NCBI RefSeq assembly: GCF_900009135.1 | Contig: NZ_LT797704.1 | Span: 116,746 to 180,745, forward strand | Reading direction: 5' to 3' | Source of the DNA: Planktothrix sp. PCC 11201 | Lineage (GTDB): Bacteria; Cyanobacteriota; Cyanobacteriia; Cyanobacteriales; Microcoleaceae | DNA length: 64,000 nucleotides | Part shown: one piece after another, positions 555 to 33,281 of the stretch | Layout of the letters: every line of letters starts with the position of its first letter | Numbering within the stretch: the stretch's first letter is position 1 | Notes under the pieces: generated by a model | Databases searched by the model: none | Told to the model about the DNA's origin: nothing | The model's input: the letters and a program-made list of their open reading frames with translations, nothing else | Program-made: the position numbers and the translations under genes

Positions 555-3500
555 TTATTCGTCTTCGTCCTCGTCGTCTTCGTATTCGTCATCAATTAAC
601 TCATCATCGAGGATAGCCGATAATAAAGGATCATCTTCACTATCTTCAAATAGGACTTTGCTGCCTTTGCCGAAACTAGAGGTTGCTGCTTTGGGTTCTG
701 GGGGTAATTCCCGTTCAAAACTGTTATAGACCCGGGCGGTTTTATCATCCAAGACCACATCCCGCAGTTCGTCCTCGTCTTCCTCATCCAAATACAACGT
801 CCCGTTATCGAAGCCATACTCGGCATTACCGGATTCCTCATAGGCATTGAATCCCGTTCCCGCCGGAATCAGGCGTCCGATAATCACGTTTTCCTTGAGA
901 CCGCGTAACCAGTCGGATTTGCCCTCAATCGCCGCTTCGGTCAAGACCCGGGTGGTTTCTTGGAAACTAGCCGCCGAGATAAAGCTATCGGTATTTAAGG
1001 AGGCTTTGGTAATCCCCAATAACACGGGGGTATATTTGGCGGGGGCACTTCCGGTAATCGACATGGCATCATTCACCTGTTCCACCTGGCGCAGTTCCAC
1101 CAATTCCCCAGGTAACATAGTCGTATCGCCCCCATCATCAATCCGCACCTTAGAGGTCATCTGACGGACAATCACCTCAATATGCTTATCGGAAATATCA
1201 ATCCCCTGGGACTGATACACCGACTGCACCTCGTTGACCAGGAACGCTTGACACTGGCGGAAACTGCCCAAAGCCGCATCATACATTCCTTCCCCCTGTT
1301 CCAGATAATGGTCATAGAACACTTCTAGGATTTCATGGGGATTGCTAGGGCCATCGGTCAGGGTTTGTCCGGCTTCTACTTTGTGACCATCGGAGACAAT
1401 TGGGGATTGACCCGAACCCAGGGGATAATCCGTAACCGTGCCATCATTTTCAATCACCCGTAGTTCGGTGACGTCATCATCCATCGTCACCTGGGCCGTT
1501 CCCGGACGTCGGGCTAAAACGCAGGCTTCCTTGGGTTTGCGGGCTTCTAATAATTCTTCAATTCGGGGCAACCCTTGAATAATATCTCCGGTTTTGGCCC
1601 GTTCAAACACCAGCAACACCAAGTTATCCCCCCGTTGTACCAAGTCTCCGTCCTTAACGTGGAGAATGGCACCGGAAGACACCCGATAGGGCCGACCCCG
1701 ACGCAGGGTAATCTGATTTCCCGTGACCGGGATAGTCCCCTGACCCACGATTTTGTCACCAACGGCAATGACTTGACCGGACTCCGATAGCTTAACCCCT
1801 TCAGCAATTTCAATCCCTTCTACCAACAGTTGACCCAATTTCACCGTCGGTTTAACGCCTTCGGGCAACTCAATGGTCATTTGGTCAATATCTCGTACCA
1901 CTAAACAACGGCGCAGAATTTCCGACCCCGACCGAATCCCCTGAATAATCCCGTCTTCCTTACACATGATTTCCGTGCGGGTGACCACGGCGCCTTTTTC
2001 TATTTCATCTCCATCCTTGACCAGTAACCGGGTGCGGGTACTGCCCTGGGTGGCATCAGCGATCACATCCCGACGAATCACCAAGGATTCCAAAATCACT
2101 AACTGTAACTTCCTGACATCGGGGTCATTCTCATCGGGAAGTAACTCAATATCGGCCGCTAACTGCGGGGCTTCGATGCCAATACTAATCACTAACTGGG
2201 TTCGTAGCAGTTCCACCCCTTCCACAGACCGTACCCGTTCCCCATCTTTATAGGTTAAACGTTGCACGGCTCGCAGGACAATAGATTCGTTCAGAGATTC
2301 CTGAGAAGGTACGGTAGGATTTTCGGGAACGCTAAACTCCACCACAGGGCGCAACAGCAAGGCTGGGCCTTCGGGAGTTTCCACATATTCCACATAATGC
2401 AAGTCCTGAGACACAATTCCCGGAATCACCTCTTGGCCGGGATTGACAATCTGGCCATCAATCGCCATCACCATTTCCGGGTCATCCACCAGATGCAGTT
2501 CCCCGGGTTTGATGACGATTTCTCGCAGAATATCATTTTTCTGAGTAACTTCAATCACCCCATTACTCTGACAGAAGATATCCTTAACCACTTCCATCCC
2601 CGCTTCCACATACTGTCCATCCTCAGTTAACAGTAGGGAAATATCCTTATTCACCTCATGGCATTCTTCGGGAATCCATAATAAAGTGCCTCCCTGGGTG
2701 ACTTCATAACCCTGTTTTCCCTTACCCCGTTTGGCGACTTCCACCCCGGCGTATTTAATAATCCCCCCGGTTTTGGTGCGGTAGCTATCATCCATCAGTT
2801 CCGCAATCACATCGTGGTTTTCCACTTTGGAACCCGGACTGACTTTGAGCATGAAGCGATGGTTACTATTGGTTTCAATAATATGTTGTTCCCGTCCCTG
2901 CATCTGTACTAAGCGAACTAAGGCTTGATCCAGCAATACCGAAGCGGTAATAATCTCAATTTCCCGAGGTAGCTCATCGGGAGCAAACTGTTCCCGAATT
3001 CGGACTAATCCCCCATGCTCAGAAACCAGTTTGGTTTGGGCGAGAACGCTTCCTGGATGCACCTGGTCACCATTTTTGACCAATGGTTCCGCCGCCGGGG
3101 GCAGGTTATACACTTCTCCTCCGAGAACCCAAATCAGCCCCCCCCGTTGGGCGATGCGGGTCATGTTCCCTTGACGGTCGGTTTTTTCTTCGGGAACTAC
3201 GTCAGCAAATTTGACTTCCCCAGCTAAGTCCGTGGCCACGTCCTTGGTGGCTTTTTCCGTGGTTTTCCGGGCTGTCCGACCCCCAGCGGCAATTTCCGCT
3301 AGGATTTCGTCAGCTTTGACCCTTTGGCCTTCTTGAACAATAATCGTTGTTCCTTGGGCGATACTGTGTTTTTCGGTGTTTTTTCCGCCACCTTCGACAA
3401 TAATCTGGCCGGTGCTTTCCACGATAAAGGCATCATCCCCGTGACGGGTACGGAAGGGACGGACTCGCAGGGATTTGGAGAACTTGACTACCCCATCAAT

Positions 3501-4586
3501 TCGAGCTCGGATCATTCCGGCGGCTTCGGCGGTGAATACCCCTCCAGTGTGGAATGTCCGCATGGTTAACTGGGTTCCGGGTTCGCCGATACTCTGGGCG
3601 GCAATAATTCCCACCGCTTCCCCCAGGTTAACGTTATGACCATGGGCTAAACTCCAGCCATAGCAATGTTGACAGACGGAACGATTGGCTTCACAGGTTA
3701 GAGGCGATCGCAATAGCACTTCCTCAACCCCGGCTTCCTGAATAGCTAGGGCTAACTCCTCACTCACGGAGTGATTTTTCACCGCCTGTTCTGACTGATA
3801 TGTGACAATTTCTCCGGTTTCCGGGTGGCGAACATCTTCCCCTAACACCCGGCCCATTAACCGATCTTTGATCGGAATTAACACCCGTTCCCCATCGGTC
3901 ATACTGCGAGTCCAAATCCCCTTGCTGGTTCCGCAGTCAATTTCCCGCAGGATCACATCCTGGGAAACGTCTACTAAACGGCGGGTTAAATACCCTGAGT
4001 CGGCGGTTCGTAGGGCCGTATCTACTAGACCTTTACGCGCCCCATAGGAGGAAATAATATATTCCGTAACGGTTAAGCCTTCCCGGAAGTTGGTTTTAAT
4101 CGGTAAATCAATAATCTCCCCTTGGGGATCGGCCATTAATCCCCGCATTCCTACTAACTGACGGACTTGGGAAATATTCCCCCGGGCGCCGGAGAAGGCC
4201 ATCATATAAACGGAGTTCAGGGGGTTACTGGCTTTAAAGTTTTCCACCACCCGATCTTTCAGGGCTTCGGACGTCCCATTCCAAGTATCAATAACTTTTT
4301 GGAACCGTTCAACTTCGGTAATTTCCCCTTTAATATAACGGCGTTCTGTATTTCTAATTTCTTCTTCCGCTTCTTCTAATAAGGCTTTTTTGGAAGGGGG
4401 AATCTGTAAGTCATCAACACTAATAGAAACCCCGGCTTTTGTGGCATAGGTAAACCCTAATTCCTTTAATTCATCGGCAATTTGGGCGGTACGAGCCGTG
4501 CCATAATTCATAAAAGCCCAGGACATGATTTTCTTTAATTGTCCTTTATCAATAACTTGATTCCGAAAGATTTTTTTGTTAGTCAT
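555..4586 (-). CDS. rpoC2: DNA-directed RNA polymerase subunit beta' (C-terminal part), RpoC2
   Basis: This 1343-residue protein is the C-terminal half of the beta' subunit, which cyanobacteria and plastids encode separately from RpoC1. The second zinc-binding site is visible near residue 296 ([11 protein letters not shown]). The trigger-loop region starts near residue 332 ([19 protein letters not shown]). About 640 residues of SI3 insertion (sandwich-barrel-hybrid repeats) follow, and the conserved core resumes near residue 1000 ([14 protein letters not shown]). The tail is a very acidic Asp/Glu stretch. It is last in rpoB-rpoC1-rpoC2 and 89 bases after rpoC1. The size fits cyanobacterial RpoC2, so the long insertion is normal and not an intein. 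Start ATG 4584-4586. Confidence 0.98.
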
Positions 4587-4596
4587 GATGTAAATC

Positions 4597-4627
4597 AGTT
4601 ATCAGTTATCAGTTATCAGTTACCAGT
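4597..4627. repeat. Tandem CAGTTAT-type heptamer repeats, rpoC1-rpoC2 spacer
   Basis: Three to four consecutive copies of the heptamer unit CAGTTAT (ATCAGTTATCAGTTATCAG) followed by a degenerate copy. The repeat is the short tandemly repeated type known from filamentous cyanobacteria. Confidence 0.8.
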
Positions 4628-4642
4628 GCAAGATTAATCAAT

Positions 4643-4670
4643 GTAGAGACGTTGCATGCAACGTCTCTAC
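4643..4670. repeat. Perfect 28-nt palindrome in the rpoC1-rpoC2 spacer
   Basis: GTAGAGACGTTGCA is followed directly by its exact reverse complement, giving 14-bp arms and no loop. A half-copy (GTAGAGAC) occurs at 440 and a diverged relative at 23778-23804, so this is a dispersed palindromic repeat and not a gene-specific operator. Confidence 0.8.
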
Positions 4671-4675
4671 ACTGA

Positions 4676-6571
4676 TTACTGTATTAGTGTGTCTTGAACG
4701 GTTTTATTGAAAATGACACGTCCCGGGGTAGTACGGATATATTGAGCTAGAATATTACCCTCGGAATCTTCTCGAACTCGTCGCATTAGTTTCCCTGTTT
4801 TTTTGCCCACATAAGTTTTAGTGATCACTCCAGTTAAGTCGTCTGTATGTTCGACTCCTATCTGTTCTGTTTCATCCGATAAAATCTCCCCATCAAATCG
4901 CACCATAACATAGGAATGTAAACCCAAAGCACCCTGTTTATAGGCTAAGATTACGTCTTCTAAATCAGCAAAATAGCGGTGACTTTGATCCTCTAATTTG
5001 GGGTTTTCTGCGGTTAAATAATAACATCCCAACACCATATCCTGACTGGGTGTCACAATCGGTCTACCCGTGGCTGGGGATAGGATATTATTCGAGGCTA
5101 ACATCAATAACCGAGCTTCAGCCTGGGATTCAATCGATAGGGGGACGTGAACAGCCATTTGGTCACCGTCAAAGTCAGCGTTAAAGGCGGGACAAACTAA
5201 CGGATGCAGTTGAATCGCCCGACCATCGACTAAAATCGGTTCAAAGGCTTGAATCCCTAAACGGTGCAAGGTTGGGGCGCGGTTTAGCATCACCGGATGT
5301 CCTTGGATGACTTCTTGTAAGACTTCCCAAATGCTGGCATCATTCCGTTGAATCAGTTTTTTCGCCGCTTTAATATTGTTCACTAATCCTTGACGAATTA
5401 GGCGGTTAATTACAAAGGGTTGGAACAATTCAATTGCCATTTCCCGTGGTAAACCGCACTGGTGCATTCTTAATTTTGGCCCCACCACGATAACCGAACG
5501 TCCAGAATAATCGACCCGTTTTCCTAATAGGTTTTGACGGAATCGTCCTTGTTTTCCTTCGATAATATCGGAGAGGGATTTTAAGGGTCGATTATTCGCC
5601 CCCACCACCGTCCGACCCCGGCGACCGTTATCAATTAAGGCATCAACAGCTTCCTGTAACATCCGTTTTTCGTTACGGATAATAATTTCTGGGGCGAGAA
5701 TTTCCTGCAACCGGGCTAACCGATTATTTCGGTTAATCACCCGACGATATAGGTCGTTTAAGTCGGAGGTGGCAAATCGACCCCCATCTAACTGCACCAT
5801 TGGCCGTAAATCGGGAGGAATGACGGGAATCACATTCAAAACCATCCAATCTGGTTTGGAACCTGTCGCCACAAAGTTATCAATTACCCGCAATCGTTTA
5901 ATTAATTTGGCGCGTTTTTGTCCCTTAGCAACGGCAATTTCTTCGCGTAATCTTTCGGCTTCTTCTTCTAAGGGAATATCTTCGAGCAAACGGGAAATGG
6001 CTTCGGCTCCAATTCCGACTTCAATTCCGGTTAAGGTGGAATCCTCACTATAAATTTGGTCTTCAATTTCTAACCAAGTATCTTCGGTTAATAACTGTTT
6101 ATAGGATAGGCCATCATAGTTACCCGGATTTAACACTACATAGGCATTAAAATAAACGACCTGTTCTACATCCCGCAATGGCATATCTAATAAAATAGCC
6201 ATATAACTAGGAATCCCTTTCAGATACCAAACATGGGTCACAGGAGCGGCTAGTTTAATAAAACCCATACGGTGACGACGAACCCGGGATTCTGTTACCT
6301 CCACCCCGCAGCGTTCACAGACAATTCCACGATGTCTTACCCGTTTATATTTCCCACAATGACATTCCCAATCCTTTGCCGGGCCAAAAATTCGTTCACA
6401 AAATAACCCGTCCATCTCCGGTTTCAGGGTTCTGTAATTGATGGTTTCAGGTTTTGTGACCTCTCCAACCACCTGACCATTCGGTAGGGCTCTTTCTCCC
6501 CACTGGCGAATGCGTTCTGGAGAAGCGATTCCAATTTTAACGTAATCAAACCGTTGTTCAATTTTAGCCAT
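4676..6571 (-). CDS. rpoC1: DNA-directed RNA polymerase subunit gamma (N-terminal beta'), RpoC1
   Basis: This 631-residue protein is the N-terminal part of beta' in the cyanobacterial split arrangement. The first zinc finger lies near residues 67-91 ([19 protein letters not shown]). The absolutely conserved catalytic Mg-binding loop [12 protein letters not shown] is near residue 463, and the rudder/lid region ([16 protein letters not shown]) is present before it. It carries the clamp and active centre, and needs RpoC2 for the bridge-side elements. It sits 178 bases after rpoB and 89 bases before rpoC2, all on the minus strand. Start ATG 6569-6571 ([18 protein letters not shown]) is the usual cyanobacterial start. 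Confidence 0.98.
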
Positions 6572-13948: not shown

Positions 13949-14003
13949 TAGAGTACAGTGGTAAGGCGTCAATTCATTATAGCATTGGGTAAAAATATTG
14001 ACT

Positions 14004-16262
14004 ATGCAATCAACATCACCATCCCTTACCATCACCCCTAATAAAAATATTAAAGTTATTAAACGAGATGGTAGTCTGGCCCCATTAGATGTCTCTAAAA
14101 TTCGAGAAGTCGTTAACTGGGCTTGTGAGGGAATGGAGGCGAATCCGATTACCCTAGAAGCGGGACTCACCACCCGTCTGCGCCATGGTGTGACCACCCG
14201 AGAAATTCAGGATAATTTAATTAATTGCGCCTTGGAGTTATGCAGCCCCTCCGACCCAAACTGGCGTTATGTGGCGGGAAGACTACAGATTTGGAGTTTA
14301 TGGAAGGATACCTTAGTCCGTCGGGGTTATGAATACGGCGACTATTGCAGAACGGTTCATAATAAAGTGGAACAGGGACAATATGACGTTCGGATTCTGA
14401 CCTACACCGCCGAGGAACTTCAAGAAGCCGGCAGTTGGATCAACCCCGAATGGGATAAGGATTATGATTATGCTGGGGCTGTTTTGTTAAATAAACGCTA
14501 TTTATTAACGGATGAATTACCCCAGGAAGCTCTATTAACCTGTGCATTGCTATTAGCAATTGTGGAAAAACCCGAAAATCGGTTATTTTGGGCTAGAAAG
14601 TTTTATCAAGCGATCGCCGGGCGGAAAGTTTCCTTAGCCACCCCAATTTTAGCAAATTTAAGGATTCCTCACGGCTCCTTAAGTAGCTGTTTTATTACGG
14701 CAATGGATGATAATTTAGAAAGTATTTTTGACACGATTAAAGATGCCGCTAGAATTTCTAAAAATGGCGGGGGTGTGGGTACAAATGTCAGCCGAGTCCG
14801 GGCAACGGGCAGTTGGGTGATGGGGAAACAAAACACCTCGGGGGGTGTGATTCCTTGGATTAAATTATTAAATGATACGGCGATCGCAGTGAATCAAGGC
14901 GGACGTCGAGCGGGGGCGATTACGGTGAGTTTAGATGTCTGGCATTTGGACGTTCCTGAATTTCTGGAAATGCAGACGGAAAATGGCGATCAACGTCGCA
15001 AAGCCTATGATATTTTTCCTCAATTAGTGATTCCTGATGAGTTCATGCGTCGGGTAATCAGTCGAGAGGATTGGACACTGGTTGATCCCTATGAAGTTAG
15101 GGAAAAACTGGGCATTGAATTGGCTACGACTTGGGGAGAATCCTTTGAAAGTGTTTATCAAAAAATAGAAGCCAACTTAGATACGGAAATCACCCTTTAT
15201 AAAAAGGTTAATGCCCGGGATTTATTTAAGTTGATTATGCGTTCCCAAGTGGAAACCGGAATGCCCTATTTATGGTTTAAGGATACCTCAAATCGGGCGA
15301 ATCCGAATCAACATGAAGGCTATATTCCCGGGGGGAATTTATGTCAGGAAAGCTGGTCAAATGTCAAGCCCGGAGAGGAAGCCCATACTTGCAATTTAGA
15401 TTCGTTAAATTTGGCAAATATTGAACAGGAAGAACTACCAGAAGTCTGTGAAATTGCGGTGCGAATGTTAGATAATACGATTGAAATTACTAACACTCCT
15501 TTTGAAGCCAGTAAAAACCATAACCAAAAATATCGGACAATTGGGGTCGGGGCGATGGGATTAGCCGATTGGTTAGCCAAAAATCGCTTAACCTATAACC
15601 ATTTAAACGAAATTAGTCATCTGTTTGAGGATATTGGTTTTTATTGCACTCAAACCTCTATGGAACTCGCTAAGGAACGGGGGTATTATCCAGCTTTTCA
15701 AGGCAGTGCTTGGAGTCAAGGAAAGTTAATTGGGGCGAAATCTGTAGAGTGGTTTTTGCAACACGCAGCCCAGAAAGAACGCTGGCAACAATTGAGTTTA
15801 GATATTCAAAAATATGGGATTCGCAATTCTCATATTACCGCGATCGCGCCTAACACATCTTCTTCCTTAGTTCAAGGATGTACCGCTAGTATTTTACCCT
15901 GTTATAGTCGTTTTTTCTATGACAAATGGGCAAAAGGAACGGTTCCCATTGCTCCGCCATTTCTTCAGGATCATTTTTGGTTTTACCCGGAAAATAAAAG
16001 CCTCAATCAACAAATTGTTGTTAAGGCGGTGGCGACGGTTCAAAAGTGGATTGATACCGGAATTTCCATGGAATTAATGTTTAATTTGAATGAGGGCGTG
16101 TATTTTCCAGATGAACCCGATCGGGCTATCAAAGCTAAGGATATTTTTGATACCTTAATCTTAGCTTGGCAAGAAGGCTGTAAGGCGGTTTATTATGTCA
16201 GAACGGTACAGCGTGATAGTTTCAAAGAAGCCGATGATGGCTGCGTTGCTTGCGCTAATTAA
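14004..16262 (+). CDS. nrdA: Ribonucleoside-diphosphate reductase class Ia, alpha subunit
   Basis: A 752-residue catalytic subunit that reduces ribonucleotides to deoxyribonucleotides. An N-terminal ATP-cone (about residues 12-100, KVIKRDGSLAPLDVSKI) indicates dATP/ATP allosteric control. The catalytic barrel includes SSCFITAMDDNLESI, NGGGVGTNVSRVRATGS, PNTSSSLVQGCTASILPCYS, and a C-terminal redox pair GCVACAN that would be re-reduced by thioredoxin/glutaredoxin. ATG 14004 is preferred over TTG 13998. No intron or intein interrupts it, in contrast to nrdB 77 bases downstream. Class Ia assignment comes from the cone, the length and the adjacent NrdB. Confidence 0.96.
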   Translation: MQSTSPSLTITPNKNIKVIKRDGSLAPLDVSKIREVVNWACEGMEANPITLEAGLTTRLRHGVTTREIQDNLINCALELCSPSDPNWRYVAGRLQIWSLWKDTLVRRGYEYGDYCRTVHNKVEQGQYDVRILTYTAEELQEAGSWINPEWDKDYDYAGAVLLNKRYLLTDELPQEALLTCALLLAIVEKPENRLFWARKFYQAIAGRKVSLATPILANLRIPHGSLSSCFITAMDDNLESIFDTIKDAARISKNGGGVGTNVSRVRATGSWVMGKQNTSGGVIPWIKLLNDTAIAVNQGGRRAGAITVSLDVWHLDVPEFLEMQTENGDQRRKAYDIFPQLVIPDEFMRRVISREDWTLVDPYEVREKLGIELATTWGESFESVYQKIEANLDTEITLYKKVNARDLFKLIMRSQVETGMPYLWFKDTSNRANPNQHEGYIPGGNLCQESWSNVKPGEEAHTCNLDSLNLANIEQEELPEVCEIAVRMLDNTIEITNTPFEASKNHNQKYRTIGVGAMGLADWLAKNRLTYNHLNEISHLFEDIGFYCTQTSMELAKERGYYPAFQGSAWSQGKLIGAKSVEWFLQHAAQKERWQQLSLDIQKYGIRNSHITAIAPNTSSSLVQGCTASILPCYSRFFYDKWAKGTVPIAPPFLQDHFWFYPENKSLNQQIVVKAVATVQKWIDTGISMELMFNLNEGVYFPDEPDRAIKAKDIFDTLILAWQEGCKAVYYVRTVQRDSFKEADDGCVACAN

Positions 16263-16339
16263 AGGCTAACAGGCTAACTTTATAGAACTATGTCATACTG
16301 GTGGAGGAAAGTTATCTTAAATTCCTTGACTTTACGAGT

Positions 16340-16552
16340 ATGACTTTAGACTTTGCTTCATCCCCAGCCCGGGACAAAAATGGGCATAAAAAGCCCTTAA
16401 CGATGCCGATCAATCCGATTTTCAATCCGAATGGAAATGATGATATTAATCATCGTTCTATTTGGTTTGGGGAAACCACAAATTTAATGCAGTTAAATGA
16501 TGTGCGTTATTCCTGGGCCGTGGGTTTGTATAAACAAATGCGCGAGAATTTC
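16340..16552 (+). CDS. nrdB: nrdB exon 1
   Basis: 71 codons ending VGLYKQMRENF. The last bases carry IBS2 (GCGCGA, 16540-16545) and IBS1 (AATTTC, 16547-16552), recognised by intron 1. Unspliced reading continues only seven codons (VRLVLA-stop) into the intron. Confidence 0.92.
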
Positions 16553-19500
16553 GTGCGACTCGTTTTAGCCTAAAGATGCTCAAACCCTTGTGTTATAAAG
16601 CATCGGGACGGTTAGTTCCTGAATAGTTTAGGAATAACTTTTGTATCCATCTAGGTGAGCTTAATTTAAGCAAGTCCTAGCCTCTGAGTGCAAGAGGAAA
16701 CGCCCTGACATATCCATCTTGGATAGCCCCTACTAAGGCGACTGATTATCAATTTAGTAAAGCGGGGACAGTTTCAAAACTGATAATTGCTGAAAACAGT
16801 TAAGAAGTGGCAGGAACGTCATGGGTAGAACAAACGAAGTACCGTTGAGCCATCGTTATCGCGCAGCAGGGAATATAAGCTTGTGTTATGGACACGCCCT
16901 GCGTCGGAAATAACCGACAAGAGTAGAGAAATCCGATATCGAAATTTTCTGGATTTGCACTTCTCATACCTCCGGTGGAAAGGTACGCCCTAAAACGTTC
17001 AAACCAATGGATACAAAGGAACGAGATAACCCAATTTCAAGCTCTTAATATCAGGTCGAAATATTAAGAAGTCAGTCAAGACAAAAATCTAGGAAACTAG
17101 GCTGAAATTGGGAAGGATGGGATAAGAAGCAAACGCTCACCATGAATTGACATGGAATGCCTAAAAAGGGATGGGGTAATGCCCGAGATAAGCAGACGTA
17201 TCTCGCAATATGCTGATAGCTAGATTTTGGAAGTAGTAGGTTAAATGTCTAATTCACATTCGGAAATTAAACCCAATAGTGAGGAATGGAGAAACATCGA
17301 TTGGCGTAAAGTCGAGAGATATGTCTTCCGCTTACAAAAACGAATCTACGCAGCTTCACGAGATGGCGATGTGAAAAAAGTCCGCCAGTTTCAAAGAACA
17401 CTCATGAGGTCATGGTCAAGCCGAGTCTTAGCGGTACGACGGGTTACTCAAGATAATCAAGGGAAGAAAACAGCAGAAGTGGATGGAGTTAAATCTTTAT
17501 CCCCAGAAGCTCGTTTACACCTTGCAGGACGACTTCAGATGACAGGGAAAGCCAAACCAACAAAAAGAGTATGGATACCCAAAAGGAATCAAAAAGAAAA
17601 ACGTCCGTTAGGAATACCCACAATGTACGACCGCGCAGCACAAGCATTGGTTAAATTAGCCCTAGAACCCGAATGGGAGGCGAAATTTGAACCCAATAGC
17701 TATGGCTTTAGACCAGGACGTTCTTGTCACGATGCGATGTGTCAAATTAAAAATCACCTAAAGCATGAAGCTAAATATGTACTAGATGCAGATATAGCCA
17801 AATGCTTCGATAAAATTGACCATCAAAAATTACTCAATAAACTTGGCATGAAAGGTAAAGTCAAGCATCAAATTAAAGCTTGGCTGAAATCTGGAGTTCT
17901 CGATAACAGAAAATTTCATGAAACCATTGAAGGAACACCACAAGGGGGAGTTATATCGCCCTTACTGGCTAATATCGCCCTTCATGGATTAGAGGAACGA
18001 CTAAACGAATATATCAAAACTGTTCCTCTAAAGGACTGGAATCAGACGCAAAATAAATGGCTTGTAAAAAGCAAAGAAAGAAGGATAAGTTCATTGGGAT
18101 TTATCCGATATGCCGATGATTTTGTAGTTCTTCATAAGGAAAAGTTTGTCATTGAGAAATGCCAAGAAATTATTATTGAGTGGCTGAGTGACATTGGTTT
18201 AGAACTCAAACCTGAAAAAACCAGTATTTCTCATAGTTTAGAGACAAATTTATTCTCTAATGGGAAAGCTGGGTTTGATTTCCTTGGCTACCATGTACAA
18301 CAGTACAAAGTTGGTAAACATCATCAACATAAAGCCGGAAATAAAAAGGTTGAATTTAAAACCTACCTGACTCCAACCCAAGACAATCTCAAAGCTCATC
18401 AAGAAAAAATCAAGTCAATTATCCTTAAACATGAAAGTAGCCCCCAATCCGTCTTAATTAAAGAATTAAATCCTGTAATTATCGGATGGAGTCGCTATTA
18501 TTCATTTTCCGATGCTCAAACATTAGGAATTTTTAAAGGGCAAGATAATTTGACTTATCTAAAACTTAGAAGATGGGCTAAGAAAAGATGTAAAACGATA
18601 GGGAAGGCTTCAAGAAAATATTGGAAAAGAGATGGCACAAGAAATTGGGTGTTTATATCCAATGAAGCTAAATTATTTTTCCATGTTGACTTTGAAACCA
18701 CAAGCAATCCTTTAGTTTACAACAAAGTCAAGGGTGATAAAAGTCCTTATGACGGAGATTGGGCTTACTGGAGCGCAAAATTAGGTAAAAACCCTAACGT
18801 ACCTCAAAGATTAGCAAAAATCTTAAAGTATCAAAAGGGTAAATGTAACCATTGCGGACATTATTTTTACGATGAAGATGTGATTGAAATTGACCATATT
18901 ACACCTAAATCACAAGGCGGAAAAGATGAATATAAAAATCTTCAAGCCCTTCATCGCCATTGCCATCATCAGAAGACAAGATTGGATAAACAATCTTGTC
19001 AGGAAGTCTGATATTTCAGTAAGCGTATTGAGTAGCCGTGTGAGGTGAAAGTCTCATGCACGGTTTCGGAGGAGAGATGGTTAATGGCAACATTACCATC
19101 GACTCTAACTGGGTACCTGAAAAATTAGATATTACTCAGGATGTCGTGGATGTGCGATTCGTTTAACCTAAAATAAGCTGAAAGGTTTATGGGACGGTTA
19201 ACCCAGTTGTTAAAACTGGTGATAACTGATTACATTTGTGGGTGAAATTCCGTGAATTAAGTCCCACCCCTCAAGTGCTGAGGTGAAAGCATAACCCCTA
19301 GTTTGACTGGGTAGCAACCAACAGATTAAAGCGGGGTTAAAAGGTAGAACTACTGGAAGCCAAATCTGGTAACTATCGAGCAAGAAGTCCATGCGTAGCG
19401 CAAGCAAAGATGTGTCTAAACCATCGTTACATCTAATGGTGTAATGGCTAAATCAAGACAAAACTTGATTAACACCAAGCCAAAAGGCAAGAATAAGGCA

Positions 19501-22500
19501 TAAGCGATTATCTACTCGACTTATAAGCACCGCCAATAAATCCGGTGGAAAGCATCACGCTAAAGACCTCAAACAAATGTGTAATCGGAACGAAGTAACC
19601 CCTATATATCTCTGGAAAAAGGTCGAAAATCCAGTAAGTAGCTAACGAATGATATGTAGGGAAGGGATGGTGTCAAAAGCGAATGCCTTGTTGTAATGAC
19701 AAGGATATGCTGACAGATGCTCGGTAATTCCAAAGAAATAGAACAAGTAGCAATTTATATGTCTAAAACGCAGAACAATCTGACGGTGGAATGGAACCAA
19801 ATCAATTGGCGTAAAGCTGAAAGATTGACGTTCAAGTTGCAAAAGCGAATATTTCAAGCGAGTAAACGAGGCGATGTTAAAGCAGTTCGTAAACTTCAAA
19901 AGACCCTGATTAGGTCTTGGTCGGCAAAATGTATCGCGGTACGTCGGGTAACACAAGATAACCAAGGTAAAAATACGGCGGGTGTGGACGGAGTAAAATC
20001 TCTGAACCCGAAGCAACGTATAAACCTGGTAGGAAAGTTGAAGTTAACCAATAAGGTAAAACCAACTCGTAGAGTTAATATCCCCAAACCTGGAGCAACG
20101 GAAACTAGACCACTAGGAATACCCACAATCAACGACCGCGCATTGCAAGCGTTAGTTAAACTAGCGTTAGAACCAGAATGGGAGGCGCTCTTTGAGCCAA
20201 ACAGTTATGGTTTCAGACCAGGACGTTCCTGTCACGATGCAATCGAAGCAATATATGTCAGTATCAATAAAAAAGCCAAATATGTGCTTGATGCTGATAT
20301 CTCAAAATGTTTCGATAAAATCAATCACAAAGCATTAATTTCAAAAATACACACATACCCTACATTAAGCCGTTTAGTAAAAACATGGCTCAAGGCAGGG
20401 TACTGTGACGGAAAAGAACTTTTTCCTACCCATGATGGTACACCACAAGGAGGGGTAATTTCACCCTTACTTGCGAATATTGCCTTACATGGTATGGAAG
20501 AAAGAGTCATGCAATATGCAGAAACTCTGAAAGGGTCAAAAGTAAAAAATCGTCAAGCCCTTAGTTTAATCCGTTACGCTGATGACTTCGTAATAATCCA
20601 TGAGGATTTAAACGTTGTCAAAAAGTGTCAAGAGATAATCGTTGATTGGTTAAGTGATATGGGATTGGAATTAAAACCAAGTAAAACAAAATTAACCCAC
20701 ACACTCAATGAAATTGATGGAAAAGTCGGGTTTGAGTTCTTAGGATTCTATATACAGCAGTACAAAGTAGGAAACTACAGAGGTGCTTATAGTGCATACG
20801 GAATACCACTAGGTTTTAAAACATTAATCACACCCTCTAAAGTCAAAATCAAAACACATCTTGCCAAAATAGCTGAAGTAATAGATACCCATAAAAATGC
20901 ACCTCAAGCGGCTTTAATTAACAAGCTGAATCCAATTATTAGAGGTTGGTCAAACTATTACTCAACTAAAGTTAGTAAGGAGACTTTCTCAAGAGTTGAC
21001 CATCTAACTTATGACAAGTTGAGAGCTTGGGCAAGAACGAGGGGGAAAGGGGACATCAATAAAGACAAATACTGGAGAACAGTAGGCGACAAAAATTGGT
21101 GTTTCAGTACAGAAGATGGAATAGAACTAATCAAACACGCCAGTACGCCAATCATCAGGCATACAAAGGTTAAAGGTGAAGCTAGTCCATTTGATGGTAA
21201 CTGGATTTATTGGAGTAAACGAAGAGGCGAATATCCTGAAACTCCTAACAGAGTTTCTAAATTAATCAAAAAACAAAAGGGTATTTGTCCCCACTGTGGT
21301 TTGTATTTCACAAGTACAGACATTGTAGAAGTTGACCATATTAAACCAACATCATTAGGTGGTAAAGACATCTATGATAATTTACAACTTCTACACAAAC
21401 ATTGCCACGACATAAAAACGGCTCATGATGGTTCTTTAACGAAAAATAAGCAATTACCAATAGTTGAGAACTATGACAAGAGTCCGTTTTGAATCGTATC
21501 CATAACAAGGATGGAATTATCAAGGAGCCGTGTGAGGCGAAAGTTTCATGCACGGTTCTGAAGGAGAGGTCGGAGTGGTAACGCTCCTATCGACTCTAAC
21601 TATGTTAACTTAACTCCCGATGAACGTTGGGCATTTGATGGAATTTTAAGTTATTTAACCTTCTTAGATTCTGTTCAAACCTGCAATATTCCTCATCTGA
21701 AAAGTTGTGTAACTGCTCCAGAAATCAGTCTTTGTATGGCGGAACAAACTTCTCAGGAGGCGATGCACAATCAAAGTTATCAATACATGATTGAAACGAT
21801 TATTCCATCTGATCGGAGAACCTTTGTTTATGAATTTTGGAAAACCGATAGTGTCTTGCGCGATCGCTGTGAATTCATTGCCGGGATTTATCAACAATAT
21901 ATGGATAATCCCACCCTGGAAAATTACTTTATTTCCCTGTTAGCAGACTATATGTTAGAAGGGATTTACTTCTACAATGGGTTAAATTAGTGGCCCCCTA
22001 GCACCGCGAGATGTTAGTGAAAACTCATCAAATTGCTGGAACCCCCTAAAGCCTTTATACCAAAGCGAAATTAGAAATGATTAGCGCGCCAGGTGCGAGA
22101 GCAGAAAAAAGTTAAAGGATTGATTGGAAGCCGCAAGGGATCTAATCTTTACAATGGGCAATCAGCAGCCAAGCTCCTCATAAAAGGAGAAGGTTCAACG
22201 AACAGAGGGTGAGTATCTTTAACCGACTTGACCATAAGGGGATTGACTTTTATAATGGATGTATCATCTGATTTAATAGTGATCTGTATGGCAAGTTTAA
22301 CAGGTGTTGTCTATCAGATTAAAAATCTTAAAAACGGCAAGATTTATATCGGTTGCACAACGATTAATTTTGGCAATAGACTGGCGCAACATATCCGTAG
22401 TATAGGGCAAATTAAAACAGACCTATATGATGATATGAAAAAAGACATTAAGGATTTTTCTTTTTGTGTTATTGAAGATAACATCCCCTGTCGTGATTTG

Positions 22501-23771
22501 AGAAAAAGAGAGTCACACTGGATTCATTTTTTTCAATCTACAGTCAATGGCTATAATCAAGTCATTTTTAATGGAAATGAGAAACTAACGGAACACAATA
22601 TTTGGGAGATTAAAGATTTAATTATCAGTACAAATCTTAAATTCCTAGAAATTGCTGATATGTACAGTATCTCACCTGATGCAATCGCTGATATAAATCT
22701 TGGTCGCGCATGGCTAGATGAATCTGCCGAGTATCCCTTGAGAAAGCGGACTATTAAAAGGAAAAAACTTTCTGAGAATGATATTCACCAGATTTATGAA
22801 TTGCTGCGTGATCAGACACTATCTTTTAAACAAATTACTGAAAGATATGGGTGGTCAAGTGAAGCCGTTTTAAGAAAAATTAATAATGGTACATACAACA
22901 TCAGTCCATTACCTAAAGAATGTTATCCGATTAGATCGGTTGATTCTCGGAAAGGGCACAAGGTTAAAGATAATGGTATGTTCTAGCCCCTACTGAAAGG
23001 ATGGGTAGTAGCGTTATCTACTTCTACAATTTAGCTTCACGGATGTTAATGCCGGGATCTGCTGATATTTTCAAAATGATTAACCGTTAAATTCATAGCG
23101 GCTTTTCACGGTAACGTGGATCGAAAACCCCTCTAATTCAGGGAAACTCTCAATTGAGACAATCCTGAGCCAAGTAGAAAAATTAACTTTCCCCTGTCAT
23201 TTGGATTGATGCTTGGGAAGTTATTGATTCTAAAGGTGCAACGACTAGCAATAAAAGCGTAGGTTCAAGTGAACCGAAACGGGGGGCTTCCTATTAGGAA
23301 GATGATATAGTCTATTCTGAAAGGTAACTTTCAGCAGTTCTTAAGAGAACGGGCAAGGAGTAACGACCCTTGTTGAATATTAAGGATGAACTTTCTCATG
23401 TTCGGTTATTCCAAAAATTAATTCCTGAAGCCATGGAAGTGTTTACCCACTCCGTTGATCAGATTTATGAAATGTTCAATACCGCCGTTGAACATGAATG
23501 TAAATGGACGAATCATATTGTCGGAAATAATATCTTGGGAATCACGGAATATAGTACGGAACAATACACCAAATATCTAGCCAATATTCGGTTACGGTCT
23601 ATCGGTTTAGAGCCCCTTTATCCCGATAAAAAGTACAGTAAAAGTCCCTATACCCATTTAGAACGCTTCTCGGATACCAAAAAAGAAGCCCATACTAAAG
23701 CTAACTTCTTTGAAGCCAGCGTCACCAGCTATGTGATGTCTTCTGGGGTCAGTGGTTGGGACGAAATCTAA
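16340..23771 (+). CDS. nrdB: Ribonucleoside-diphosphate reductase class Ia, beta subunit, split by four introns (join 16340-16552, 19110-19151, 21601-21982, 23014-23087, 23385-23771)
   Basis: Joining five exons gives a 365-residue NrdB, the radical-generating subunit partner of NrdA. All diiron ligands and the radical tyrosine are present after splicing: Asp in FLDSVQ, Glu/His/Tyr in QEAMHNQSY, Glu in LEGIYFY, and Glu/His in RDELSH. Every junction restores the frame and the family consensus: ENF|WVPEKLD, DVVD|YVNLTPDE, YNG|FIYFYN, INR|DELSHV. Introns 1 and 2 are group II, introns 3 and 4 group I. ATG 16340 (MTLDFASSPARDKNG) is chosen; GTG 16301 in the same frame is possible. Without splicing the longest products would be short fragments. 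Exon coding and conserved residues look under selection, so I regard it as functional and not a pseudogene. Confidence 0.93.
16553..19109 (+). mobile_element. Group II intron 1 of nrdB (CL-type), 2557 nt, with RT-maturase ORF
   Basis: It begins GTGCGACTCG, the canonical group II 5' end, and ends CGACTCTAAC. Domain V is readable at about 19034-19065 (AGCCGTGTGAGG, GTGAAAG tetraloop area, then TCTCATGCACGGTT), followed by domain VI with the branch region. EBS1 GAAATT (16941-16946) pairs perfectly with IBS1 AATTTC; EBS2 TCGCGC (16859-16864) pairs perfectly with IBS2 GCGCGA. This fixes the 5' splice site without relying on protein homology. The encoded protein (17245-19011) occupies domain IV. 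Excision joins ENF to WVPEK in frame. Confidence 0.93.
17245..19011 (+). CDS. Group II intron-encoded protein 1: reverse transcriptase-maturase-HNH endonuclease
   Basis: 588 residues with the full domain order of a mobile group II intron protein. An N-terminal RT-0/RT-1 region (VERYVFRLQKRIYAASRDGD, then VRRVTQDNQGK) is followed by RT core FEPNSYGFRPGRSCHDA and GTPQGGVISPLLANIALHG, and the catalytic YADD near residue 288 (IRYADDFVVLH). Maturase domain X follows (LNPVIIGWSRYYS). The C-terminal HNH nuclease has paired CxxC near residue 534 (CNHCGHYF), IDHITPKSQGGKDEYKNLQ and a second H/C pair (HRHCHH). It would assist splicing and retrohoming of intron 1. All catalytic residues are intact, suggesting an active element. 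ATG 17245 fits the family start. Confidence 0.95.
   Translation: MSNSHSEIKPNSEEWRNIDWRKVERYVFRLQKRIYAASRDGDVKKVRQFQRTLMRSWSSRVLAVRRVTQDNQGKKTAEVDGVKSLSPEARLHLAGRLQMTGKAKPTKRVWIPKRNQKEKRPLGIPTMYDRAAQALVKLALEPEWEAKFEPNSYGFRPGRSCHDAMCQIKNHLKHEAKYVLDADIAKCFDKIDHQKLLNKLGMKGKVKHQIKAWLKSGVLDNRKFHETIEGTPQGGVISPLLANIALHGLEERLNEYIKTVPLKDWNQTQNKWLVKSKERRISSLGFIRYADDFVVLHKEKFVIEKCQEIIIEWLSDIGLELKPEKTSISHSLETNLFSNGKAGFDFLGYHVQQYKVGKHHQHKAGNKKVEFKTYLTPTQDNLKAHQEKIKSIILKHESSPQSVLIKELNPVIIGWSRYYSFSDAQTLGIFKGQDNLTYLKLRRWAKKRCKTIGKASRKYWKRDGTRNWVFISNEAKLFFHVDFETTSNPLVYNKVKGDKSPYDGDWAYWSAKLGKNPNVPQRLAKILKYQKGKCNHCGHYFYDEDVIEIDHITPKSQGGKDEYKNLQALHRHCHHQKTRLDKQSCQEV
19110..19151 (+). CDS. nrdB: nrdB exon 2 (14-codon micro-exon between two group II introns)
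   Basis: 42 bases encoding WVPEKLDITQDVVD. Its 3' end supplies IBS2 (GGATGT, 19139-19144) and IBS1 (GTGGAT, 19146-19151) for intron 2. The sequence is a strongly conserved NrdB block, so its isolation between introns is certain from both the RNA and protein sides. Confidence 0.92.
19152..21600 (+). mobile_element. Group II intron 2 of nrdB (CL-type), 2449 nt, with RT-maturase ORF
   Basis: It starts GTGCGATTCG and ends CGACTCTAAC, the same 3' end as intron 1. Domain V is at about 21526-21559 (AGCCGTGTGAGG, GCGAAAG, TTTCATGCACGGTTCT). EBS1 ATCTAC (19510-19515) pairs with IBS1 GTGGAT (one G-U); EBS2 ACATCT (19429-19434) pairs with IBS2 GGATGT (one G-U). These guides sit at positions homologous to those of intron 1 but differ completely in sequence, so the two related introns recognise different targets. 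Excision joins DVVD to YVNLTPDE in frame. Confidence 0.93.
19759..21492 (+). CDS. Group II intron-encoded protein 2: reverse transcriptase-maturase-HNH endonuclease
   Basis: 577 residues from ATG 19759 (MSKTQNNLTVEWNQINW); the frame is open back to 19717 but those residues are not family-like. Order: RT-0/RT-1 (ERLTFKLQKRIFQASKRGD), RT core (FEPNSYGFRPGRSCHDA; GTPQGGVISPLLANIALHG), YADD near residue 273, domain X (KLNPIIRGWSNYYS), and HNH with CPHCG near residue 511 and VDHIKPTSLGGKD. It is clearly homologous to the protein in intron 1, but differences are scattered along its whole length, so this is an old divergence and not a recent tandem copy. All catalytic motifs are intact. Confidence 0.95.
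   Translation: MSKTQNNLTVEWNQINWRKAERLTFKLQKRIFQASKRGDVKAVRKLQKTLIRSWSAKCIAVRRVTQDNQGKNTAGVDGVKSLNPKQRINLVGKLKLTNKVKPTRRVNIPKPGATETRPLGIPTINDRALQALVKLALEPEWEALFEPNSYGFRPGRSCHDAIEAIYVSINKKAKYVLDADISKCFDKINHKALISKIHTYPTLSRLVKTWLKAGYCDGKELFPTHDGTPQGGVISPLLANIALHGMEERVMQYAETLKGSKVKNRQALSLIRYADDFVIIHEDLNVVKKCQEIIVDWLSDMGLELKPSKTKLTHTLNEIDGKVGFEFLGFYIQQYKVGNYRGAYSAYGIPLGFKTLITPSKVKIKTHLAKIAEVIDTHKNAPQAALINKLNPIIRGWSNYYSTKVSKETFSRVDHLTYDKLRAWARTRGKGDINKDKYWRTVGDKNWCFSTEDGIELIKHASTPIIRHTKVKGEASPFDGNWIYWSKRRGEYPETPNRVSKLIKKQKGICPHCGLYFTSTDIVEVDHIKPTSLGGKDIYDNLQLLHKHCHDIKTAHDGSLTKNKQLPIVENYDKSPF
21601..21982 (+). CDS. nrdB: nrdB exon 3
   Basis: 127 codons plus one base. It carries most of the diiron site: Asp (FLDSVQ), Glu-x-x-His and the radical Tyr (QEAMHNQSY), and the Glu of LEGIYFY. 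It ends AATGGGT, with the terminal U required at a group I 5' splice site. Confidence 0.92.
21983..23013 (+). mobile_element. Group I intron 3 of nrdB, 1031 nt, with GIY-YIG endonuclease ORF
   Basis: The intron follows a U (AATGGGT|TAAATT) and ends in G (GTAGTAGCG|TTATCT), as group I introns do. An internal guide GCCC within TGGCCCCCTAG at about 21990-22000 can pair with exon GGGU, placing a U-G pair at the splice site. Core elements by eye: P (AAATTGCTGGAACC, about 22029-22042), Q (AATCAGCAGCCAAGC, 22160-22174), R (GTTCAACGAACAG, about 22193-22205), and S/P7 3' strand (ATGTTCTAG, about 22978-22986). GAAC of R pairs with GTTC of S. The ORF therefore sits in the P8/P3 loop region. Splicing restores YNGFIYFYN. 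Confidence 0.85.
22288..22986 (+). CDS. GIY-YIG homing endonuclease in group I intron 3
   Basis: About 232 residues from ATG 22288 (MASLTGVVYQIKN; an in-frame ATG at 22255 is the alternative). The GIY-YIG module is at the N-terminus: VVYQIKN, KIYIG, the catalytic Arg in NRLAQHI, and Glu/Asn in KRESHWIHFFQSTVNGYNQV. The C-terminal half contains two related helical DNA-binding repeats, LTEHNIWEIKDLI...IADINLGRAW and LSENDIHQIYELL...LRKINNGTYN, like the NUMOD/HTH modules of homing enzymes. It is expected to cut intronless nrdB alleles and drive intron homing. Its stop codon (TAG 22984-22986) lies inside the intron core P7 strand. Confidence 0.85.
   Translation: MASLTGVVYQIKNLKNGKIYIGCTTINFGNRLAQHIRSIGQIKTDLYDDMKKDIKDFSFCVIEDNIPCRDLRKRESHWIHFFQSTVNGYNQVIFNGNEKLTEHNIWEIKDLIISTNLKFLEIADMYSISPDAIADINLGRAWLDESAEYPLRKRTIKRKKLSENDIHQIYELLRDQTLSFKQITERYGWSSEAVLRKINNGTYNISPLPKECYPIRSVDSRKGHKVKDNGMF
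23014..23087 (+). CDS. nrdB: nrdB exon 4
   Basis: 74 bases; with the last base of exon 3 they encode FIYFYNLASRMLMPGSAD and then IFKMINR. The exon ends AACCGT, again with U at the group I splice site. Confidence 0.9.
23088..23384 (+). mobile_element. Group I intron 4 of nrdB, 297 nt, ORF-less
   Basis: A compact group I ribozyme, similar in size to cyanobacterial tRNA introns. The 5' site follows U (AACCGT|TAAATT); the internal guide GCGG (about 23098-23101) pairs CCGU with U-G at the junction. Core: P TAATTCAGGGAAAC (about 23134-23147), Q AATCCTGAGCCAAG (about 23161-23174), R GGTGCAACGACTAGCAA (about 23235-23250), S AAGATGATATAGTCT (about 23299-23313). GACTA of R pairs with TAGTC of S to make P7. 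It ends ATTAAG, with the required terminal G. No ORF, so it is not independently mobile. Confidence 0.92.
23385..23771 (+). CDS. nrdB: nrdB exon 5
   Basis: 128 codons plus TAA, starting DELSHVRLFQKL, which contains the last Glu and His iron ligands. It ends YVMSSGVSGWDEI, the expected NrdB C-terminus that docks into NrdA. Confidence 0.92.
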   Translation, partial: DELSHVRLFQKLIPEAMEVFTHSVDQIYEMFNTAVEHECKWTNHIVGNNILGITEYSTEQYTKYLANIRLRSIGLEPLYPDKKYSKSPYTHLERFSDTKKEAHTKANFFEASVTSYVMSSGVSGWDEI

Positions 23772-32345: not shown

Positions 32346-33221
32346 ATGACATTTTCTCCGATTCCTTTAATTGGGCTGCGGGCTGATCATTTCCGTCATC
32401 CTTTGGATTTACAAGCCACGAATACCTTAAAACAATTTCCGGGTTTAGATTTGTTAGTGCGACAATTGTTAGGAGGTCTGGGAGAACAGTTTTTTTATTT
32501 AGAAAATATTGCTTCCAGTATTTTGGTGAGTGAAAAACAGTTACCTCATTTGCATCAATTATTATTAGACGCTTGCAAAATATTGGATTTAGAACCTCCG
32601 CAACTGTATATTCGCCAAAATCCTGTTCCCAATGCCTATACCTTTGCCATGCGGGGAAAACAGCCGTTTATTGTAATTCATACCTCCTTAATTGAATTAT
32701 TAACCCCAGATGAAATTCAAGCGGTGATTGCCCATGAGTTGGGACATTTAAAGTGTGAACATGGGGTTTATTTAACCCTGGCGAATTTAGTGATATTAGC
32801 GGCTAATCAATTATCTCCCTGGGGAACAATGTTGACCCAGGGTTTACAGACCCAGTTAATGGAATGGGTACGTTGTGCAGAATTTACTTGTGATCGGGCG
32901 GCATTACTGGCTACCCAAAATCCTAGAATAGTCATGTCGGTATTAATGAAACTATCGGGAGGCTCTCCCAGTTTAGCCCCGCAACTCAACTTAGATGCCT
33001 TTGTCGCCCAAGCTAGAACCTATGATCAAATTAGTAGTACGGAACTGGGAGAACTGCTTAAACAAGCCCAAACAGCCCAATTAAGCCATCCCCTGCCAGT
33101 GCTACGGGCGAGGGAAATTGATCGTTGGTCAAGTAGTCCGAATTATCAGGACTTGCTAAAAAGAAAGTTTATGGTGTATGATGGTGAAGCCAACCGAAAG
33201 GGCGGGTGGCGGAATTGGTAG
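32346..33221 (+). CDS. M48-family zinc metalloprotease
   Basis: 291 residues with the zinc-binding HELGH near residue 130 (VIAHELGHLKCEHGVYLTL) and the third-ligand Glu region CAEFTCDRAALLA about 55 residues later. HtpX/M48 enzymes cleave membrane or unfolded proteins. Hydrophobic segments are weak (LVILAANQL), so it may be only membrane-associated. The N-terminus (IGLRADHFRHPLDLQATNTLK) matches cyanobacterial M48 proteins. Its last seven codons and stop lie inside the tRNA-Leu gene: TAG 33219-33221 is the D-loop of the tRNA, a 22-base same-strand overlap. Confidence 0.9.
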   Translation: MTFSPIPLIGLRADHFRHPLDLQATNTLKQFPGLDLLVRQLLGGLGEQFFYLENIASSILVSEKQLPHLHQLLLDACKILDLEPPQLYIRQNPVPNAYTFAMRGKQPFIVIHTSLIELLTPDEIQAVIAHELGHLKCEHGVYLTLANLVILAANQLSPWGTMLTQGLQTQLMEWVRCAEFTCDRAALLATQNPRIVMSVLMKLSGGSPSLAPQLNLDAFVAQARTYDQISSTELGELLKQAQTAQLSHPLPVLRAREIDRWSSSPNYQDLLKRKFMVYDGEANRKGGWRNW

Positions 33222-33281
33222 ACGCACCGCACTCAAAATGCGGCGGCTTCGGTCATAAGAGTTCAAGTCTCTTCCCGCCCA
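33200..33281 (+). tRNA. tRNA-Leu (anticodon CAA)
   Basis: A complete 82-base class II tRNA. The acceptor stem is GGGCGGG/CCCGCCC with discriminator A at 33281. The D arm is GCG-GAATTGGTAGA-CGC. The anticodon arm is CCGCA-CTCAAAA-TGCGG, with anticodon CAA reading UUG. A long variable arm (CGGCTTCGGTCAT) and T arm AAGAG-TTCAAGT-CTCTT follow. CCA is not encoded. No intron. It overlaps the end of the M48 protease gene. Confidence 0.95.

Follow-up and report, generated by a model that had tools for sequence, protein, structure and literature searches.

The nrdB locus and its exon structure

All positions given below for the studied genome refer to the analysed window, a stretch of 64,000 nucleotides from Planktothrix sp. 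PCC 11201, and the reductase genes with all their parts lie on its forward strand. An uninterrupted open reading frame at 13998–16262, the single match to PF02867 in this genome, corresponds to nrdA, the gene of the large subunit, and directly downstream of it begins nrdB. The latter is divided into five exons by four introns, two of group II and two of group I, which have sizes of 2557, 2449, 1031 and 297 nt and occupy 6334 of the 7432 nt of its span (~85%). Exon 1 (16340–16552) encodes residues 1–71 and the short exon 2 (42 nt, 19110–19151) residues 72–85; exon 3 (21601–21982) extends from residue 86 to the first base of codon 213, exon 4 (23014–23087) from the remainder of this codon to residue 237, and exon 5 (23385–23771) contains residues 238–365 and the stop codon. 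In the unspliced form in-frame stops come after each exon. Being joined, the five exons give 365 codons and a stop with no internal stops, that is an intact NrdB of 365 aa. Some uncertainty concerns the start codon of exon 1, since there is an in-frame GTG at 16301 and distant homologues begin at residue 22. The same arrangement had been proposed by a sequence-only reading of this DNA, and both the Rfam models and the open joined frame agree with it; the only coordinates which that reading gave, the outer borders 16340–23771, turned out to be correct. Automatic annotation will report a fragmented nrdB in such genomes. Elsewhere in the window, at 33200–33281, the Rfam model RF00005 registered a tRNA with a long variable arm and without an intron.

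Group II introns 1 and 2

Intron 1 (16553–19109, 2557 nt) and intron 2 (19152–21600, 2449 nt) both start with GUGCG and end with AAC (GTGCG...AAC in DNA), as the end rule of group II introns prescribes (5′ GUGYG, 3′ AY). Their domains 5/6 were recognized by RF00029 above its gathering score, at 19031–19109 with 54.6 bits and at 21523–21600 with 63.6 bits, respectively. Each intron contains an uninterrupted frame for a protein with reverse transcriptase, maturase and HNH domains (588 aa at 17245–19011 and 591 aa at 19717–21492), where RVT_1, GIIM and HNH all score over the cut-off, and both presumably belong to the chloroplast-like (“CL”) type of group II introns with an RT-maturase-HNH protein. 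Since both encode maturases, proteins probably assist their splicing in the cell. The former idea of four sequential self-splicing events is not supported by the anatomy either, as it imposes no order on four separate introns.

The 5′ junctions of both introns were compared with their guide sequences. The exon elements of intron 1 (16540–16552; IBS2 at 16540–16545 and IBS1 at 16547–16552) pair in six of six positions with EBS2 (16859–16864) and EBS1 (16941–16946), respectively. The EBS1 hexamer is present in this intron seven times, and it is the copy at 16941–16946 that falls in the expected region. For intron 2 the corresponding elements are located at 19139–19151 (IBS2, 19139–19144; IBS1, 19146–19151), 19429–19434 (EBS2) and 19510–19515 (EBS1). 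In both introns each of the two pairings is complete (6/6) with the own exon and reaches only 0–3/6 with the exon of the other intron, and the guide pairings invoked earlier in support of these junctions were thereby confirmed. In five introns of the intron 2 family, occupying sites 85, 187 and 268, EBS2 covaries with IBS2, giving 25 of 25 possible pairs, while the next-best column gives 18/25. EBS1 of this family lies in one and the same loop and fits at sites 85 and 268, but seems to pair only imperfectly in the two introns of site 187.

Intron 2 occupies the same site in Planktothrix genome G009 (90% identity), is 85–87% identical to introns found at nrdB sites 187 and 268 of G001 and G007, and has three long relatives (86%) elsewhere in its own genome. 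A near-full-length second copy of intron 1 is absent from the own genome, where only partial matches with 64–80% identity were found, and none of the other genomes in the mapped set of 23 carries a group II intron at its site 71.

Group I introns 3 and 4

Intron 3 (21983–23013, 1031 nt) matches RF00028 with 45.2 bits (E 4.9e-10), which is below the 50-bit gathering score of this model; ORF-less cores of congeners, 98–99% identical to it, reach up to 71.5 bits. For intron 4 (23088–23384, 297 nt), in which no ORF reaches 80 aa, the match to the same model at 23078–23334 has 102.6 bits and exceeds the gathering score. Both introns possess a U·G pair at the 5′ splice site and a terminal G. The P1 helix folds in both of them, at 21979–21996 with the pair U21982·G and at 23084–23101 with U23087·G, in line with the U·G splice-site pairs that the sequence-only reading had named for both introns; in comparison with shuffled sequences this fold is more stable for intron 4 (z −3.45), but not for intron 3 (z −0.03). 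The junction of intron 3 was placed at 21982/23014 on the basis of the 3′ terminal G rule and of alleles without this intron, which, as judged by pattern, run straight through GF-I in six of the seven loci tried (L033 gave no match). The same empty-site alleles rule out an alternative junction that yields 366 aa, one residue too many.

Intron 3 encodes a predicted GIY-YIG homing endonuclease (22288–22986; PF01541, 36.2 bits with a cut-off of 22.6, E 7.4e-9). Its frame is open from 22228, and the start at 22288 was set by comparison with G125 and G174. This protein matches 19 phage records, all with less than 60% identity, the best being a reductase gene of a Vibrio phage (34%), and the DNA of introns 3–4 matches 658 phage records, where the top ones cover 14% of the query; such matches demonstrate a shared core, and not the source of the introns. 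At the same site intron 3 is 99% identical to its counterpart in G005 and 97% identical to that in G002, while intron 4 shares 96% identity with the core of the ORF-bearing intron that G006 has at its site.

Introns in nrdB of congeners

Interrupted nrdB was found in all ten Planktothrix genomes (the studied one and nine others), with 1–5 introns in each. Four introns, two of each class, are present in the own genome (G000), and four in G001 and G009, where three belong to group I and one to group II. Three introns, all of group I, reside in G002 and G006; two, one of each class, in G003 and G008; a single group I intron in G004, whose locus L022 is identical to L085 from Planktothrix sp. UBA8402; and five, three of group I and two of group II, in G007. 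One intron of each class was registered in G005, where the group II intron, located on a different contig, borders with its end directly on the exon at residue 304. Thus, the two classes are mixed in seven of the ten genomes, the richest combination being the 3 + 2 of G007, which rules out the uniqueness of a mixed-class nrdB. Of the earlier opinion that a mixed 2 + 2 combination is unusual only the narrow part survives: this exact set was observed only here. Not one intron is shared by all ten genomes. Judging by the identities of introns 1–4 across genomes and sites, the intron sets turn over while the NrdB protein hardly does, and nrdB seems to be a hotspot for introns and not an isolated case.

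Insertion sites across the order

Insertion sites were mapped in 23 genomes, including ten Planktothrix and 13 other members of the order chosen because their nrdB is split. All 42 group I introns reside at four positions only, after 72.67, 144, 212.33 or 237 residues. Their class was assigned by end motifs, and 38 of them also have an Rfam group I match with E of 0.001 or better; the remaining ones (L019 at 72.67, L116 and L122 at 237, L123 at 144) resemble their site-mates. The 14 mapped group II introns, each with a match to RF00029 (14/14), are dispersed over ten positions. Introns of one group I site are alike across genera, as expected of homing, and exist with and without an ORF. At site 237 the encoded endonucleases may even differ: an HNH_3 protein was found in G001 (L019:6275-7257) and a LAGLIDADG protein in G009 (L028:5690-6646, reversed), though the intron cores are 96% identical over 317 nt. 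A separate observation concerns the introns of site 72.67 in G001 (L019:2219-3000) and G002 (L020:2222-3003), which encode a Cys/His-rich protein of 177 aa having no Pfam match over the cut-off; it may be a homing endonuclease of a type not yet described.

The protein stretches around group I sites are somewhat more conserved than those around random positions (four sites, p 0.024, with 72.67 only at the 57th percentile), which is not the case for group II sites (p 0.20). Three of the four group I sites are located no more than 2 nt from a catalytic codon, for which 6.5% of positions qualify, and the fourth is 22 nt away, but the nine-residue list used for this estimate was drawn up after the sites had been seen. 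To assess how widely split genes occur, 388 genomes of the order, an even sample of a larger group, were screened. An NrdB match was registered in 171 of them, and 57 of the 171 contain at least two NrdB-matching stretches, which is an upper bound for split genes, as contig breaks and paralogues may be included; G286, G313 and G369, for instance, have a full-length NrdB copy and a second match. Genomes with a single partial match may have a split gene, too. In G213 (G213:C1:4635861-4636505) the NrdB match leaps from residue 157 to residue 256 with no gap in DNA, as in a shortened or rearranged nrdB.

A peculiar configuration was found at the codon-213 address of locus L118 (genome G265). A group II intron (1788–4334) is followed there by a group I intron (4335–4807) with zero bases between them, so that the former sits exactly at the 5′ splice junction of the latter. 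In the sister locus L117 (G138) a group II intron alone occupies the same nucleotide (4015–6565). By its layout the L118 pair is a mixed-class, twintron-like arrangement, and the group II intron would have to exit before P1 of the group I intron can form. In 2015 a passage of PMC4649490 described a group II twintron of Trichodesmium as the sole twintron of bacteria known from a protein-coding gene.

Possible contribution of introns to regulation

The distribution described allows one to imagine nrdB as a standing community of mobile ribozymes, composed of four group I lineages, each tied to a single address at radical-site codons or close to them, and of several group II lineages able to land anywhere, including the L118 junction. 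If, nrdB belonging to the sole reductase, the number and kind of introns kinetically limited dNTP supply, they would act as a heritable and fast-changing dial on growth or DNA replication. We consider this extended picture improbable. Somewhat less probable still is that the introns were recruited as a regulatory gate, where the rate of splicing sets the level of NrdB. Group I introns need a guanosine cofactor, and all introns of these kinds need Mg2+. The location in the gene of the cell's only reductase and the persistence of introns in 10/10 congeners fit such a gate, but the sets differ between close congeners with near-identical NrdB and have no common member, which speaks for selfish elements rather than for one conserved switch.

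Probable functionality of the gene

Insertions that take ~85% of the gene and leave in-frame stops after each exon may also be perceived as signs of a decaying copy, interrupted beyond repair in a cell that obtains its dNTPs from elsewhere. However, the genome (a draft of 103 contigs, 99.71% complete) contains one NrdB, whose pieces are exactly these exons, and one NrdA, the product of the adjoining gene; a second NrdB, a second PF02867 protein (NrdJ-type) and NrdD were searched for in it, and none was found. An intact nrdB elsewhere, named earlier as the observation that would speak against a working gene, is thus absent from the available contigs; that it was missed in such a draft is unlikely but possible. 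With one NrdA, one NrdB and no NrdD, the removal of introns should be essential, and the dependence of the reductase on it, assumed before, is in line with this single set of genes.

The frame obtained by joining the exons differs from those of G001, G006, G007 and G009 in 1, 0, 1 and 0 non-synonymous and in 24, 29, 26 and 25 synonymous positions, respectively (345 codons). For G002, G003, G004, G008 and G018 the dN/dS values are 0.05–0.06, while for G032 and G013 dS estimated by NG86 is saturated. Joined frames are stop-free in all nine Planktothrix genomes where they were assembled; G005, whose gene spans two contigs, is not among them. Such a pattern of substitutions indicates strong purifying selection on the spliced frame, and the disproportion of 0–1 non-synonymous to 24–29 synonymous differences rejects the decay of nrdB, which is very unlikely in our opinion. 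Residues W72, D108, E138, H141, Y145, E205, D238, E239 and H242 are all kept after joining and are invariant in 73 intact relatives; by analogy with R2 of E. coli we take them to be metal ligands or members of the radical path.

Just as doubtful is another reading of the same exons. The length of exon 2, a multiple of three, and the separation of introns 1 and 2 by these 42 nt only, suggest that it may be skipped, giving two NrdB isoforms, or that the two introns exit as one unit. EBS1 and EBS2 of intron 2, however, fit exon 1 in just 0/6 and 3/6 positions, and since exon 2 carries W72, which does not vary among the 73 intact relatives, the skipped product should be inactive. An assembly artefact, in which short reads wrongly joined mobile introns into nrdB, is hardly credible: related group II copies elsewhere in the genome can mislead assembly, but the precise junctions agree with the exon-guide pairing, intron 2 occupies the same nucleotide in G009, and introns 3 and 4 are present in several congeners.

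Most plausible scenario

By far the most probable explanation is that nrdB is a working gene colonised by mobile introns and spliced to a 365-aa NrdB. Matches to Rfam models, the open joined frame, complete pairing of guides with their own exons and covariation of EBS2 argue for that, as do alleles lacking intron 3, few non-synonymous changes despite other intron sets, homologous introns at the same sites, and the fact that no other NrdB, second PF02867 protein or NrdD was found. The anatomy of the introns, their classes and junctions, the conserved exons and the variation among relatives are directly observed; from them we infer splicing in the cell, help of maturases and present-day mobility. 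According to this scenario at least three intron lineages independently entered the gene, which encodes the subunit of class I ribonucleotide reductase that bears the radical. Introns 1 and 2 would be group II retroelements, each encoding a reverse transcriptase/maturase/HNH protein; of the group I pair one member would have kept its GIY-YIG homing endonuclease, while the other is without it. Each of the four would be removed from the pre-mRNA by its own ribozyme, in the case of group II probably with the aid of maturases, and the five exons would then be joined into the 365-aa NrdB. At the level of DNA group I introns may home into four fixed addresses of nrdB, while group II introns would arrive by retrohoming at many addresses, having EBS sequences fitted to each of them.

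Relation to known systems

Reductase genes are known as refuges of introns and inteins, as stated in PMC3653736, PMC3984707 and PMC12702839. A cyanobacterial reductase gene described in 2003, as cited in PMC4649490, likewise contains numerous self-splicing intervening sequences that belong to two kinds, one of them being group II introns, but the second kind is represented there by inteins, and here, in the small-subunit gene nrdB, by group I introns. Group I introns in nrdE-type genes of Nostoc punctiforme (Meng et al. 2007) and Arthrospira platensis (Fujisawa et al. 2010) are mentioned in excerpts of the reviews PMC12702839 and PMC3984707; these are cyanobacterial reductase genes as well, but for the large subunit, whereas in our case nrdB is affected, at several sites and with group II introns alongside. 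Among phages, nrdE of Brochothrix phage A9 has three introns and an intein-encoded endonuclease and nrdE of Twort has two introns. Together with nrdB of T4 they exemplify reductase genes repeatedly hit, as here, by group I introns with GIY-YIG or HNH endonucleases; the sections of PMC3653736 concerned report no group II introns in these phage genes, while the gene studied here is bacterial and has them. Both ribozyme classes in one bacterial gene, as in nrdB, are described in an excerpt of PMC4853749 for 16S rRNA genes of Thiomargarita, which contain group IA3, ID and IC1 introns and a group II intron; the latter, however, has a LAGLIDADG protein, and the host is an rRNA gene rather than a protein-coding one. 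Among the matches listed from the open-licence PMC literature there was no report of introns in Planktothrix nrdB and none of both ribozyme classes within a single protein-coding gene of a bacterium, which does not establish that either is absent from print.

Each intron taken separately is of a known kind, and what is new is a hotspot where introns of both classes are quickly reshuffled while the protein stays nearly the same. Ten congeneric genomes with near-identical NrdB and 1–5 introns of two classes, located at ten mapped sites or contig breaks, make up a natural comparative experiment, which includes four group I addresses in empty and occupied states, ORF-bearing and ORF-less states of one intron, as well as endonucleases of different families in one intron core. 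It thereby becomes possible to test directly what introns cost an essential gene, how the homing cycle proceeds and how introns of both classes are spliced from a single mRNA of a bacterium.
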